This document shows, one piece after another, positions 5,758-11,269 of a stretch of DNA of 11,269 nt. Position 1 is the stretch's first letter. Every line of letters starts with the position of its first letter. The position numbers were made by a program, and so were the translations under genes. The DNA is from Treponema sp. Lineage in GTDB: Bacteria > Spirochaetota > Spirochaetia > Treponematales > Treponemataceae. A model generated the notes under the pieces. That model worked only from the letters and a program-made list of their open reading frames with translations. It did no database searches and was not told the origin of the DNA. The DNA is taken from NCBI GenBank assembly GCA_014804085.1, contig JAAVAM010000042.1:48171-59439 (forward strand), read 5' to 3'.

Positions 5758-6555
5758 TTACGCCGTCAGGGCGGATTCCTCGGCGGGGATGACGGTCAGC
5801 GGCAGGGCGCTCACTGTCTCGCGCACCGACTTGACTTCCCGTTTTCCGTGGCTGCTCGATGTCCTGATGACAACGAACCATGACGATCCCGCCTTCAGCT
5901 GCGGCGGCAGGATGAGCGATATGGTCTTGGGCATGTTCTGGAAGACATGCGTTGCCCTCACCCAGGCAGACTCATCGCTGCCCATCGTCCCGTCAGACAT
6001 GACCGGCGCAAAGAACACGCCCGTGCGGATGCCGTCGCCGGCGCCCCTCAGGCGTTCGCCCGAAATCTGCATCGGCATCCCCTCGGTCGCCTCGCACCCG
6101 ACCCGCTCGGTAAAAAGGTCAGTAAACTGCCTGATTGCCGGGGCGGTGTTCTCGGTCGCAACGCTGTCCACGAGGACACCGGCGACGGACGACTTTGCCT
6201 CCTTTGACGGCGCAAAGCCGAGTCCGAGATCGGGAACGTCGTCCACGGTCGGCTCCTGCGCGTCAATGCCGCCACGGGAATTCAAGTACAAGATGCCGAG
6301 GTCGAGCACGTTCACCGCCTCCCCCTCCCTAAGCTTCTGGAGGATTGCGATCTTGAATTCGGTCGCCATCATGCGGATAATCGTCTCGGAGACGAGCGGG
6401 TTGTTCTTCTTGACAACCGCGATCACGTTCTCAAGCGTCGCCATGTTCCTCTTGACAGTGGCATACATCTTGTCGCCGTCAACCATACAATTTTTATGAA
6501 ACGTCGCGCTCACGCGCTTTTCGGAGTCTGAATGCTCAGTAATAAGTTCTGACAT
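5758..6555 (-). CDS. HU/IHF-like DNA-binding protein, DUF4469-type
   Basis: A 265-aa protein. Residues about 30-95 (MYATVKRNMATLENVIAVVKKNNPLVSETIIRMMATEFKIAILQKLREGEAVNVLDLGILYLNSRGGI) follow the HU/IHF-like pattern seen in the DNA-binding domain of DUF4469 proteins: a helical pair, then LxxGxxVxxxxlGxfyl strands. A low-complexity Asp/Pro/Ala linker (about 100-130) leads to a beta-rich C-terminal half (about 150-255), which would be the DUF4469/Ig-like part. Such proteins are mostly described from Bacteroidetes and gut bacteria; function unknown. The start is fixed by AGGAGG 7 nt upstream of ATG 6555. It lies downstream of the XRE repressor on the same strand, separated by 165 bp. Family call from memory of the pattern, not from a search. 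Confidence 0.55.
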   Translation of the reverse strand: MSELITEHSDSEKRVSATFHKNCMVDGDKMYATVKRNMATLENVIAVVKKNNPLVSETIIRMMATEFKIAILQKLREGEAVNVLDLGILYLNSRGGIDAQEPTVDDVPDLGLGFAPSKEAKSSVAGVLVDSVATENTAPAIRQFTDLFTERVGCEATEGMPMQISGERLRGAGDGIRTGVFFAPVMSDGTMGSDESAWVRATHVFQNMPKTISLILPPQLKAGSSWFVVIRTSSSHGKREVKSVRETVSALPLTVIPAEESALTA

Positions 6556-6724
6556 ACAAACACCTCCTGATTAGGATACATATTGACCCCGGACGGCCGG
6601 TCGTGGTATGCTCTAGAGAGACACTCAAAGCGCATACCACGTTTTGATGAAGCGGGCAGTCTGCGTTCCAGCGCGGGCTGCCCCATTTTTCTGCCGGGAA
6701 GTTCCGGTGATTCCCCGCCTTCAT
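6536..6724 (-). CDS. Possible small ORF coupled to the XRE gene
   Basis: A 62-codon ORF whose ATG overlaps the stop of the XRE gene (ATGA), with AAGGAGG 10 nt upstream. Its stop lies 20 nt inside the next gene. This is the arrangement of a coupled operon gene. Against it: the product is unlike known proteins (rich in Trp, Arg, His, Cys), it has no recognised domain, and the DNA carries plus-strand promoter and terminator signals. Probably not expressed as protein, but the ribosome site deserves mention. Confidence 0.2.
   Translation of the reverse strand: MKAGNHRNFPAEKWGSPRWNADCPLHQNVVCALSVSLEHTTTGRPGSICILIRRCLYVRTYY
6583..6612 (+). promoter_or_regulatory. Plus-strand promoter antisense to the minus-strand unit
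   Basis: TTGACC (6583-6588), an 18-bp spacer and TATGCT (6607-6612) preceded by TGG, an extended -10. It points right, towards the terminator at 6654-6690, and no plausible protein gene follows. Predicted start near 6619. Confidence 0.5.
6602..6641. repeat. 10-bp inverted repeat over the plus-strand -10
   Basis: CGTGGTATGC (6602-6611) and GCATACCACG (6632-6641) are perfect inverse copies 20 bp apart. The left copy covers the extended -10; the right lies about 13-22 nt inside the predicted transcript. This suggests an operator, or a weaker mirror-image promoter on the minus strand. Confidence 0.5.
6619..6690 (+). ncRNA. Candidate small RNA (about 72 nt)
   Basis: Bounded by the promoter at 6583-6612 and the intrinsic terminator at 6654-6690. 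The roughly 35 nt before the hairpin contain no start codon with a ribosome site. It lies in the gap between two minus-strand genes and would be antisense to any mRNA running from the XRE gene into the HU-like gene. Boundaries are predicted, expression is not shown. Confidence 0.35.
6654..6690 (+). terminator. Intrinsic terminator, plus strand
   Basis: GGGCAG (6654-6659) pairs with CTGCCC (6678-6683). The stem continues inward to 13 pairs, three of them G-U on the plus strand, closing on a TCCA loop, and CATTTTT follows. On the minus strand the G-U pairs become A-C mismatches and no U-tract follows, so only the plus orientation works. Confidence 0.6.
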
Positions 6725-7227
6725 GTTTTCGTTACCTCCTTGTTTTTATCTTTGCCGGAGTATGCGGCGCGTGCCGTATGCACCATGCCCCGCAAGACCT
6801 TCAGCTCAGCCTCTACTTTCTGCATCTGCATTTCAAGGCTATCTAACAAATCATGCTCACATTCGGCGGCATTTGTTTTGACTATCACTTTCATCGATTT
6901 CATATTCTGCCGAACAGACTCTGTTGGTGAGAATTTCACTATCATATCTTTTTCTGAAGCACCTTGCTTTACTGACATTGTACCTAATGACGGTATCTCA
7001 ATCTCACCCTTGCAGATGGACTTCAATGTTTCAATCCTGTTTCCCAGCAGGATATCTGTAGAAACATCAAAAAACTGAGCCAGCCGCAACAACACATTCT
7101 GTCGCGGAACAGTCCCCTTATTCTCCCACATGTTCACCCGGCTTTTGGTAACACCGATCTCTTTTGCAAGCTGCGCCATCGTAAGCCCTCGCTTCTCACG
7201 CAATCCCCTTATCGTTTCCCTGAACAC
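6721..7227 (-). CDS. XRE-family repressor, autoregulated
   Basis: A 168-aa transcription factor. The N-terminal HTH (RETIRGLREKRGLTMAQLAKEIGVTKSRVNMWENKGTVPRQNVLLRLAQFFDVSTDILLG, about 3-62) is a classic Cro/C1 domain. The C-terminal part ends in a helical, probably coiled-coil segment, DLLDSLEMQMQKVEAELKVLRGM, likely for dimerisation. GTG 7227 is chosen over ATG 7257: that ATG abuts the -10 box TACAAT and lies before the predicted transcription start, whereas GTG 7227 follows the purine-rich AGGAAGGGTAGGG. Two 17-bp operator-like palindromes flank its promoter elements, so it probably represses itself. It is divergent from the protease gene, with the palindrome array between them, and resembles the control gene of a phage or mobile element. 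Confidence 0.8.
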   Translation of the reverse strand: MFRETIRGLREKRGLTMAQLAKEIGVTKSRVNMWENKGTVPRQNVLLRLAQFFDVSTDILLGNRIETLKSICKGEIEIPSLGTMSVKQGASEKDMIVKFSPTESVRQNMKSMKVIVKTNAAECEHDLLDSLEMQMQKVEAELKVLRGMVHTARAAYSGKDKNKEVTKT

Positions 7228-7248
7228 TGCCCTACCCTTCCTCCATGT

Positions 7249-7276
7249 ATTGTACATTTTTATTGCACACTGTCAA
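7249..7276 (-). promoter_or_regulatory. Promoter of the XRE repressor
   Basis: Reverse strand: consensus TTGACA at 7276-7271, a 16-bp spacer, TACAAT at 7254-7249. Predicted start near 7242, giving a leader of about 15 nt before GTG 7227. Confidence 0.7.
7252..7268. promoter_or_regulatory. Operator O2 (GTACAT...TTGCAC)
   Basis: GTACATTTTTATTGCAC, an imperfect 17-bp palindrome that covers part of the -10 and the spacer of the XRE promoter. It shares the TTGCAC half-site with the site at 7284-7300. Confidence 0.5.
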
Positions 7277-7283
7277 TATATTC

Positions 7284-7300
7284 GTGCAATATTTTTGCAC
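7284..7300. promoter_or_regulatory. Operator O1 (GTGCAA...TTGCAC)
   Basis: GTGCAATATTTTTGCAC, with perfect 6-bp arms and a 5-bp centre, lies just upstream of the XRE -35. Its centre is 32 bp (about three helical turns) from that of O2, which suits cooperative repressor binding. Its right half recurs in the array spacer at 7352-7359. Confidence 0.55.
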
Positions 7301-7306
7301 TTTTTA

Positions 7307-7520
7307 GTCCCTGACAGGGACTGCCTGTTTTTTCGTCCCTGTCAGGGACGGTTTTGCACTTAGTCCCCATCAGGGACGAAATTCCGCTTAGTCCCTATCG
7401 GGGACGTGTACACGTCCCTGTCAGGGACTAATATGTATCCCCGACAGGGACAGGGATGCGCACCGGTCAAGGACATGGCCGTGTCCCCGGCAGGAATGCG
7501 GGGCTGTCCTAGCAGGGAAC
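7307..7520. repeat. Array of nine 15-bp palindromes with exact 28- then 23-bp period
   Basis: Copies of GTCCCTGTCAGGGAC or variants begin at 7307, 7335, 7363, 7391, 7414, 7437, 7460, 7483 and 7506. The steps are 28, 28, 28, then 23 five times. The copies at 7335 and 7414 are identical; 7307, 7363 and 7391 differ at 1-2 bases; those at 7460, 7483 and 7506 are degenerate (about 11 of 15 for the first two, one base short in the last). Spacers are 13 bp and then 8 bp and mostly unrelated, although the copies at 7307 and 7363 are both preceded by TTTTGCACTT-like sequence. Each copy can form a 6-bp hairpin. The array fills the 7301-7520 gap between divergent promoters. Role unknown: operator array, iterons or recombinase sites are possible. 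Confidence 0.85.
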
Positions 7521-7538: not shown

Positions 7539-7593
7539 GAGAGACGGCGGAAACACTGAATGGAGCATGACGCTAATAGTGAGGAATAAAATC

Positions 7594-8448
7594 ATGGAAA
7601 TGAGCTTATCAGAAAAACTAACTTATTCGACTGTACTTATTAGATGCAAATATGCAGACGGCACAATTGGCAGTGGCACGGGATTTATTATCAATCTTTG
7701 TCAGAATGATGAGACAAGAACATGTGTTCCAGTTATTATCACCAATAATCACGTTGTAGAAAATAGCATTGAAACTCAATTTGAATTCTGTCTGCAAGAT
7801 GAGGAAGGAAATCCGATTGATAATAAATCATTTAGTATAACTTATAGAGATAATGCTTGGATCCAACATCCTGATAAAGCTATAGATTTAAGGTGTTTGC
7901 CAGTTGCTAATGTCTTACGAGAACTGGAAAAGCGTCATGTTAAGGTTTTCTACATTCCTCTTGAAGTAAGTTTAATTGCCAAAACAGAACAATTAGAAAG
8001 TTTATCAGCTATGGAAGATGTTATCATGATTGGATATCCAACAGGACTGTCTGATAAATACAATCACAAACCGATAATTAGAAAAGGTATAACTGCCACA
8101 CATTTAAAGAAAAACTATCAAGGCAAAAAGGAATTCTTGGTTGATATAGCGTGTTTTCCAGGCTCAAGTGGTTCGCCTATATTCATACTTAACGAGGGGA
8201 CATATCATATTGGAAATGATCTTTATGCTGGAAGTCGGATAGTTTTTGTGGGAGTATTATATGGTGGACCTCAGTATTCAGCAGCAGGTGACTTTGTTTT
8301 AATGAATTTACCCAATATGCCACAACCTCGTTCACTTACACAAATTCCGATGAATTTAGGAGTAGCAATAAAAGCTGAACTTATATTGGCATTTGAAGAA
8401 AAATTTAGCAACCATAAGCTAGAAAATGAGGAGCAATTTAATGGATAA
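7594..8448 (+). CDS. Trypsin-like serine protease, cytoplasmic
   Basis: A 284-aa S1-type (Trypsin_2-like) peptidase. The catalytic triad is readable: His53 in IITNNHVV, Asp98 in AIDLRCLP and Ser192 in FPGSSGSP. GSGTGFII (26-33), IMIGYPTG and RKGITAT are further marks of the fold. There is no signal peptide or membrane helix, so it should act inside the cell, unlike DegP-type proteases; no PDZ domain follows. ATG 7594 has GAGGA (7581-7585) 8 nt upstream; ATG 7567 has a ribosome site only 1 nt away. The gene is strikingly AT-rich compared with everything around it, a sign of recent acquisition. It overlaps the mod start by 8 bp, with the mod ribosome site inside its own codons, and therefore belongs to the restriction locus transcriptionally. 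An effector role in defence is plausible; the substrate is unknown. Confidence 0.8.
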   Translation: MEMSLSEKLTYSTVLIRCKYADGTIGSGTGFIINLCQNDETRTCVPVIITNNHVVENSIETQFEFCLQDEEGNPIDNKSFSITYRDNAWIQHPDKAIDLRCLPVANVLRELEKRHVKVFYIPLEVSLIAKTEQLESLSAMEDVIMIGYPTGLSDKYNHKPIIRKGITATHLKKNYQGKKEFLVDIACFPGSSGSPIFILNEGTYHIGNDLYAGSRIVFVGVLYGGPQYSAAGDFVLMNLPNMPQPRSLTQIPMNLGVAIKAELILAFEEKFSNHKLENEEQFNG

Positions 8449-9057
8449 ACTAAAAATGCAATCTATGGACAAAGTGCAGGAAAACATATGGAAGATTCAG
8501 GCATTGTTCCCGAACGCCGTAACAGAATGTGCGGATGGCAGGAAGTGGGGGGGGTGGTACGGCGAGCCGTTGATTTTGACGTGCTCAAGCAGGAGCTTGC
8601 GGACACGCTTATCGACGAGCGCGAACTCCGCTATCAGTTCACTTGGCCCGACAAGCAAAAGTCCATTTTGCTCGCGAACACTCCCACAAATAAAACCTTG
8701 CGCCCGTGCAAGGAAGAAAGCGCTGACTTTGACAATACTCAAAACCTTTATATCATCAAGCCCGACCGCACCGTGTTTGATTTGCTGTTCCAAGTCATGC
8801 TCGATTTGGGCAAGCCCCTTTCCGCTAAAATTGAAGAAAAGAATATTGCGGGCAAGCGCGTATTTATCGTAAACGATGACGACTTGATTGCGTGTTTTGA
8901 GGACAGCATATCCGCAGAAATAGTTACGGAAATCGCAAAGGCAAAGCCGCTTTATGCCGTATTCCGCGACAGCGGTTTGTCCTCGGATTCCGTCGCCGCC
9001 AACTTCGAGCAGATTTTCGCAACCTATAGCCCAAGCACGGTAAGGAAGGTGTTGTGA
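8441..9057 (+). pseudogene. mod: Type III DNA methyltransferase (Mod) remnant: core deleted, frame broken
   Basis: Mod would methylate the recognition site and supply specificity to Res. ATG 8441 with GAGGAG 7 nt upstream opens the N-terminus MDKLKMQSMDKVQENIWKIQALFPNAVTE. At the G8 run (8547-8554) the frame breaks; one extra G would join it to AVDFDVLKQELADTLIDE...NKTLRPCKEESADFDNTQNLYI, the conserved Mod N-terminal region. At about 8754 this is joined in frame to IKPDRTVFDLLFQVMLDLGKPLSAKIEE...FATYSPSTVRKVL, the conserved Mod C-terminus. The 400 or so residues in between, including the DPPY and AdoMet motifs and the target recognition domain, are absent. Restoring the frame would give about 205 aa, against more than 600 in the family. 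No methylation activity is possible. It is followed directly by TA modules. Confidence 0.85.
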
Positions 9058-10573: not shown

Positions 10574-11269
10574 ATGAAATTCAAATTCAAAATACAAGAC
10601 TATCAGACGGACGCGGTGAACGCCGTGGTCGAGGCGTTTACGGGGCAGCCGTTCAACGACAGGCTTTCTTATTTGCGCGACATGGGAAGCGGAACTGAGC
10701 TGGACTCGTTCCAAGACTGCGGATTTTGGAGCGGAACGGGATTCGGCAACGCGCCACTGTCGCTTTCGGACGGACGGCTTTTGGACAACATCCGCGCCTT
10801 GCAGATTGCGGGCAATATAAGGCAGTCGCAGGAACTCTCAAAGCCGTTCGGTGCGGGATGCCGCTGCGCGCTCGACATTGAAATGGAAACAGGCACGGGC
10901 AAAACCTATTGCTACATAAAGACGATGTTCGAGCTGAACAAAAAATACGGCTGGAGCAAGTTCATCGTCGTCGTTCCGTCAATCGCCATCCGCGAGGGCG
11001 TAAAAAAGTCGTTCGAGATAATGGAAGATCACTTTTTCGAACAGTACGGCAAAAAGGCGCGGTATTTTATTTACAACAGCAAGAATCTCAATCAGCTGGA
11101 TAATTTTTCGTCAAGTAAAGATATTAACGTTATGATAATCAACTCGCAGGCGTTCGCGTCGTCTTTAAAAGAGGGCGCGAGAAACGAAGCGGCGCGCATT
11201 ATTTACAGCAAGCAGGACAGTTTCGGAAGCCGCCGCCCGATTGATGTGATTGCCGCGAACCGTCCTATC
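10574..11269 (+). CDS. res: Type III restriction enzyme, Res subunit (3' end outside window)
   Basis: ATP-dependent helicase/nuclease subunit that, with Mod, translocates and cuts DNA between unmodified sites. The 232 codons present read [22 protein letters not shown] with the conserved QDYQtdAV start, then Walker A METGTGKT at about 104-111 and motif Ia [13 protein letters not shown] at about 125-137. The helicase DEPQ motif is expected just past the edge. No frameshift is seen to 11269. Start ATG 10574 lies 6 nt after the DUF3368 stop with only a weak ribosome site (GGA), so reinitiation is likely. Since Res needs Mod for DNA recognition and the local mod is destroyed, the enzyme is probably inactive here unless another Mod is present. 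Confidence 0.9.

Follow-up and report, generated by a model that had tools for sequence, protein, structure and literature searches.

What is a row of nine palindromes, set at exact intervals, doing between a repressor gene and a protease gene? The window (the whole stretch of Treponema sp. DNA under analysis, 11,269 nucleotides) holds, in order, genes for an HU-like protein with a C-terminal DUF4469 domain (HU/DUF4469; 5758..6555, minus strand; DUF4469 match; third in the controller operon of relatives) and an XRE repressor (6721..7257, minus strand; HTH_3, with weak resemblance to RmrA/CapH/RstR), then the array, a divergent trypsin-like protease (7567..8448, plus strand), the remnant of a type III methyltransferase (Mod), HicAB, UPF0175/PIN and the start of a gene for a type III restriction subunit (Res; 10574..11269, plus strand; family matches). 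The preliminary description had placed the array between a repressor and a defence-like protease, and its neighbours bear this out, HTH_3 on one side and the PADLOC candidate PDC-S45 (E 1.7e-102) on the other. By comparison with the full-length gene at locus L064, and judging from translations only, just the two ends of the Mod gene are left (8488..9057, in region 8426-9057, plus strand); 8488..9057 has no Pfam match. A relative in genome G195 (contig C21) is mirrored, reading Mod, Fic, array, XRE, M78 peptidase, HU/DUF4469. A peptidase gene was looked for between xre and HU in the window, and none was found.

The palindromes are 15 bp long and start at 7307, 7335, 7363, 7391, 7414, 7437, 7460, 7483 and 7506, that is, at three steps of 28 bp followed by five of 23 bp; for the ninth site a start at 7505 fits equally well. 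Matches to GTCCCTGNCAGGGAC with up to three mismatches number seven in the window, where 0.23 were expected and 200 dinucleotide shuffles gave at most two, so site starts and shuffle test agree that the nine-palindrome array on a 28/23-bp lattice is real. It has a 28-bp-lattice part (7307..7405; sites 7307, 7335, 7363 and 7391) and a 23-bp-lattice part (7391..7520; a five-site core at 7391, 7414, 7437, 7460 and 7483 plus the weak ninth site at 7506), the latter aligning without gaps with 15 other arrays; neither part is given a strand. Copies 1 to 9 differ from GTCCCTGNCAGGGAC at 0, 0, 2, 2, 0, 2, 4, 3 and 5 positions, and on these counts we rate copies 7 to 9 as weak. The proposal that copies decay toward the protease needs correcting at the weak site S2 (7460), where most copies in G000, G050 and G195 have the same asymmetric ending, so that its weakness is not plain decay. 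That this is neither plain tandem duplication nor a CRISPR array had been recognized from the window alone, and the analysis agrees: step lengths are held while spacers diverge, the units are diverged 15-bp palindromes, the 8- and 13-bp spacers are homologous between arrays, and cas genes are absent from the nine window ORFs scanned. Replication iterons were likewise rejected, rep being absent from the same nine ORFs and the array recurring at several places in the genome.

The genome of the window (2.7 Mb, 75 contigs) carries four arrays with this GTCC-type palindrome, on contigs C20 (the window), C29 (twice) and C47, and because it is only about 90% complete further arrays may be missing from the count. 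A sequence-only model built from 8 arrays and run on 200 genomes of the genus (E <= 0.01) matched nine of them, strongly in G000, G050, G195 and G197 and weakly in G016, G057, G144, G170 and G196. Simpler patterns were less specific: a two-site 28-bp pattern matched 5 of the 200 genomes (G071 probably by chance), and a three-site 23-bp pattern matched 19, many of the matches being other 23-bp tandem repeats and a few also matching the reversed control; six loci found with the three-site pattern and one found with the array model were inspected and left out of the analysis. Sixteen GTCC arrays, picked as alignable, share the five-site core over 107 columns with no gaps, and beyond one end of it carry 0 to 8 additional 28-bp units. 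The 23-bp five-site core is thus the conserved part, to which a varying number of 28-bp units is added. Three more copies, outside this set, have four core sites only, one with a small insertion. Among the 90 steps of the 16 arrays, 88 are exactly 23 bp (65) or 28 bp (23); one is 29 bp and one 22 bp, the latter being the window's last, which becomes 23 if its ninth site is shifted by one base. Identity among these alignable arrays is 0.83 in the arms, 0.49 in the inner bases and 0.55 in the spacers, and the window's spacers match those at the same positions of other arrays (e.g., GTGTACAC and GGTTTTGCGnTTA), contrary to their first description as mostly unrelated.

The GTCC arrays have various neighbours. 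Immediately upstream of the G170, G144 and G016 XRE orthologues (61-67% identity in the matching part), a related array follows an exact 23-bp lattice, with arms that are mostly RTCCG rather than GTCCC; in G170 and G144 a second such array lies by a small XRE gene adjoining polysaccharide-type genes (judged from translations). Other GTCC arrays lie near murE-like, lipoprotein, pectinesterase, rlmD-like and SH3-domain genes, where no XRE was recognized among the ORFs read or the eight neighbours scanned; one array without a recognized XRE, G195:C7, adjoins a C5 methylase gene. The expected tie to XRE and protease genes therefore stands in part: a lattice upstream of xre recurs, as described below, but GTCC arrays are also found where no XRE was recognized and with other partners. 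Their presence beside non-defence genes means either that the binder has a wider regulon or that the element spreads as a repeat.

This raises the reading of the arrays as MITE- or REP-like dispersed repeats, selfish or neutral, that gather in variable islands, their lattice a product of tandem duplication without regulation. GTCC elements are indeed dispersed, the G195 and G050 copies are homologous along their full length, differ in unit number and are flanked by repeat lattices, and contigs end near GTCC elements in G195 and G197. The GTCC type does make up one dispersed family as REP or MITE elements do; the array class as a whole does not, as palindromes differ between controllers. Nor is the palindrome scattered without phasing, the outcome that would have told against a functional array, since dispersed copies are also on the lattice. 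Unrelated palindromes recurring upstream of xre in different genera, and step lengths held while spacers diverge, make us regard the dispersed-repeat explanation as unlikely, and we demoted it from main reading to rival.

The XRE of the window belongs to a type of controller operon, xre–(peptidase, CapP-like where tested)–HU/DUF4469. Relatives of the HU/DUF4469 protein (E <= 1e-20) occur in 60 of 200 genomes of the genus and in 75 of 274 genomes, from 7 of 20 genera, of the family; a profile of nine of them matched 4fmr at 1.3e-14 and HU-alpha weakly (about 0.04), and PF14848, listed for some homologues, was below cut-off in the L064 orthologue. An ORF with HExxH lies upstream of HU in 26 of 31 operons, L064 included, by the motif only, and the other 5 of the 31 have no peptidase ORF. 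The L064 peptidase, the only one so tested, is M78 by Pfam and capP by PADLOC (2.1e-19); the peptidase at L141 had no NCBIfam match, and the window XRE matched PADLOC capH weakly (1.2e-8). Separately, a conserved gene encoding some 130-150 residues (YAILCG..; L100 8705-9157, L103 6762-7157) stands first in polysaccharide-type clusters that adjoin small XRE genes and arrays; the L100 copy has no Pfam match.

We devised a lattice test for these operons, scoring 420 bp upstream of XRE for self-repeat at a lag of 19 to 30 bp (z >= 4, the null being mononucleotide shuffles). The genus set, assigned by hand, comprised 31 of 63 loci, those with no XRE recognized upstream, with XRE at a contig end or with too little DNA being dropped; the set from other genera, assigned by profile, comprised 15 of 20 fetched loci (four lacked XRE and one had too little DNA). 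A lattice was observed in 20 of the 31 genus operons and in 4 of 129 upstream regions of other ORFs at the same loci (Fisher P = 4.6e-14), and in 13 of 15 operons from other genera vs. 2 of 41 controls (P = 5.3e-9), P values that overstate independence, several of the operons being closely related. To keep coding DNA out of the control regions, the test was repeated with noncoding gaps of at least 150 bp only on both sides, giving 17 of 30 vs. 2 of 76 in the genus and 12 of 15 vs. 0 of 28 elsewhere. Lags in the 20 positive genus operons were 23 bp (11 operons), 22 (five), 28 (two), 27 (one) and 21 (one); over all sets the lags group around 22-23 and 27-28 bp, apart from a few of 21 and a single one of 26. 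The 13 of 46 operons that fail include L064, L102, L106 and L131, though arrays are visible there by eye. On a finished replicon, the T. saccharophilum plasmid pTS1, repeats 23 and 23 bp apart separate hsdR from the series helix-turn-helix gene–hypothetical–DUF4469; the autocorrelation score alone there is z of about 3.3. As to a mobile source, one DNA query each against plasmids and phages gave no match, the L141 HU protein matched one Treponema plasmid and no phage, and an HU alignment against viral contigs (one peptide pattern) confirmed no relative.

Spacing is kept among these operons, and the palindrome changes. A second operon in the genome of the window carries variants of GGTATAGSCTATACC; arrays of G134 and G197 have GTTAAGNNNCTTAAC, that of the G050 controller TTCTTAC..GTAAGAA, G043 ACATGTACATGT, G269 GGAGAC..GTCTCC, and G250 eight near-copies of ATCTTACACACTGTAAGAT. 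The G134 repeats are laid out at 23, 24, then 28, 28, 28 bp, with the 28-bp part nearest XRE. That related switches keep the spacing and often change the palindrome points to an unrecognized mode of immune regulation in bacteria. The palindrome of the G179 controller recurs in a second array not far from the end of a contig (L184, G179:C18:54232-54361), near a gene that by translation resembles mannose-1-phosphate guanylyltransferase.

Beyond the array we listed 37 far-side ORFs and scanned 34, leaving out L101, L149 and L165. Nineteen of the 34 are defence or restriction genes or candidates, 16 of these divergent from XRE: Cas9, HsdM, HsdR, Mrr/IIG, C5 methylase, type III Mod, MmeI, GmrSD, BrxA, DrmD-like and other SNF2 helicases, a T5orf172-ResIII protein, Fic and the PDC-S45 protease, the last two counting only as PADLOC candidates. 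The other 15 are not recognizable as defence: XRE-type HTH (four), an integrase, Wzz, NUDIX, an AMP-binding enzyme, a YgjP-like peptidase and six without a Pfam match. Among the scanned genes the protease is the partner only in the window, Fic, HsdM, HsdR, Cas9, BrxA, a DrmD-like helicase and others taking its place elsewhere, and we therefore dropped the idea of a sensing element linked to the protease alone.

Palindromes on such a scale could act as RNA hairpins or extruded cruciforms, or as paired half-sites for a dimeric protein. We compared these readings in the 26 of 44 operons whose arrays scored 16 or more in autocorrelation. As hairpins would require, many units are strong palindromes, and in 17 of the 26 arrays the units are more palindromic than permuted ones, the 22-bp arrays of one XRE clade being mostly poorly palindromic. 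Against hairpins, arm compensation within arrays is absent (Watson-Crick 74 vs. 75.2 expected; G-T 36, C-A 45), no covariation is seen at pairs 5-11, 6-10 and 7-9 in 80 sites of G000, G195, G050 and G197, and the window has no Rfam match at gathering scores. Over all 105 sites pair 5-11 does covary (65 vs. 46.3), a signal that comes from a split between clades, and pair 1-15 slightly (80 vs. 73.9, P = 0.04). Half-sites thus vary independently, which fits recognition of the two half-sites of double-stranded DNA by a dimer, and we hold structured RNA or cruciforms to be highly improbable. The same lack of compensation leaves the idea that drifting palindromes are read by shape without support.

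Which protein that dimer would be is less plain. The predicted xre promoter, as read from sequence (7249..7276, minus strand; -35 TTGACA at 7276-7271, -10 TACAAT at 7254-7249), suggests by its position that the true XRE start is the GTG at 7227. Just beyond it, at 7284..7300 (no strand given), lies the dyad GTGCAATATTTTTGCAC, the putative XRE operator; in this XRE clade 6 of 10 promoters carry a dyad of its class, against 0 of 35 elsewhere. Such dyads follow XRE clade, with motifs that were picked after seeing the sequences: dyad A (TTCAA/TGCAA) in those 6 of 10 vs. 0 of 35, dyad B (TTyAC class) in 13 of 20 vs. 0 of 25, L194 being missed and assigned by eye, and dyad C (TGATAAT class) in 4 of 14 vs. 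1 of 31. Arrays do not always do so. By eye, L141/L144 and L194 have recognition helix and promoter dyad in common and differ in their arrays (GTTAAG vs. GGAGAC), and L105 and L106/L199 likewise share helix and dyad with different arrays. Since the dyad tracks XRE clade while arrays can differ, the dyad is most likely recognized by XRE and the array by another factor, for which HU/DUF4469, conserved alongside and HU-like by profile, is our first candidate.

The competing view is that XRE itself binds the array, as a CI-like repressor row to which the promoter dyad adds one further site. Adjacent dimer sites in lambda-type operators are about 23-24 bp apart, three to an operator, a spacing comparable to the 23-bp pitch here; the present arrays have five to nine or more sites, and lambda repressor itself binds its sites. 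Several arrays of the TExxxSHY clade share TTAC..GTAA half-sites, which fits XRE as binder there, and orthologues in G000, G195, G170, G144 and G016 have all kept a GTCC-type array. Set against the clade-bound dyads and the differing arrays above, this leaves XRE as array binder possible, if rather doubtful.

Our preferred reading, which we consider probable from the sequence comparisons, is that the array is a cis-acting row of protein sites, a multi-site operator, in the promoter region between a stress-type xre–(M78-type peptidase)–HU/DUF4469 controller operon and a usually divergent defence gene. Of the roles first suggested, it is this one that the lattice tests and partner genes favour; iterons, a recombinase landing array and a protease-specific sensor are not supported. 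Each palindrome would be occupied by one dimeric DNA-binding protein, and at a 23-bp pitch (about 2.2 helical turns) neighbouring dimers could assemble side by side into an ordered nucleoprotein array, repressing or timing both promoters, with XRE on a dyad of its own at the xre promoter. If the locus works as CapH/CapP does, DNA damage would lead the peptidase to cleave XRE and so release the locus. In the window, which yielded no peptidase gene between xre and HU, release may have changed or be lost.

The closest known system is CapH/CapP, which controls CBASS and other immune operons and in which CapP is activated by ssDNA and cleaves the CapH repressor (PMC13373217). Both have an HTH repressor beside defence genes, at L064 together with an M78 peptidase as in CapH/CapP, the PADLOC capH (weakly) and capP models matched, and with 19 of 34 far-side genes, candidates included, the present operons too lie beside immune operons. 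The differences are the third gene, HU/DUF4469, the long phased palindrome array and, in the window, a peptidase gene not found. RptR, a repressor acting on restriction-modification islands, resembles the present case in having repeated short palindromes at a defence-island promoter, with three 9-bp repeats, and zero to five palindromes in promoters of homologues (PMC12255303). Its sites are described there as 6-bp palindromes over the -10 box (PMC12255303), unlike the units of 15-19 bp here, at a 22/23/28-bp pitch, with up to 13 sites (L005), upstream of the promoter and with a palindrome that differs per locus. The P. gingivalis PG0121 locus likewise joins an HU-like gene to inverted-repeat DNA (77-bp, capsule) at a variable surface locus (PMC3969353); it has one long inverted repeat and no phased array, and XRE or peptidase is not mentioned in the excerpts consulted (PMC3969353). 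Our literature search found no paper on DUF4469, and none on a phased array attached to a CapH/CapP-like controller with HU/DUF4469.

A wider and decidedly tentative proposal, less likely to hold than the operator itself, is a class of defence-island switch in which the XRE–CapP–HU/DUF4469 operon assembles a filament of protein along the array it carries, with the pitch of 22/23 or 27/28 kept and the palindrome rewritten per locus, some palindromes having spread to surface-gene promoters as a regulon. If so, several islands per genome could be controlled without cross-talk, which touches the open question of how bacteria silence dangerous defence genes until needed. XRE, CapP-like peptidase, HU/DUF4469 and array adjoin type I, IIG, III and GmrSD-type restriction, C5 methylase, BrxA, a DrmD-like helicase and Cas9; the array-operon combination is a sequence handle for finding such controllers, and the system lets helical phasing of a site array be tested as a setter of defence expression.

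Further short-period repeats adjoin the GTCC elements. A second lattice, TATTTGCGGAAATA, at an exact 22-bp step, follows directly after the GTCC element in G195 and G050 (L031 13648-13750 and 10463-10565; L034 2336-2482; L066 4798-4900; L067 4796-4876), and more 23-bp lattices lie beside it at L032, L034 and L067. At L006 (4052-4171) a 21-bp lattice has a motif alternating with its own reverse complement (TTTCCATGTGCAGA / TCTGCACGTGGAGA). Two paralogous lipoprotein-like genes beside GTCC arrays each carry nine consecutive G between TTGACA and the -10 region (L005 7517-7525 and L006 7260-7268), which looks like a phase-variable promoter.
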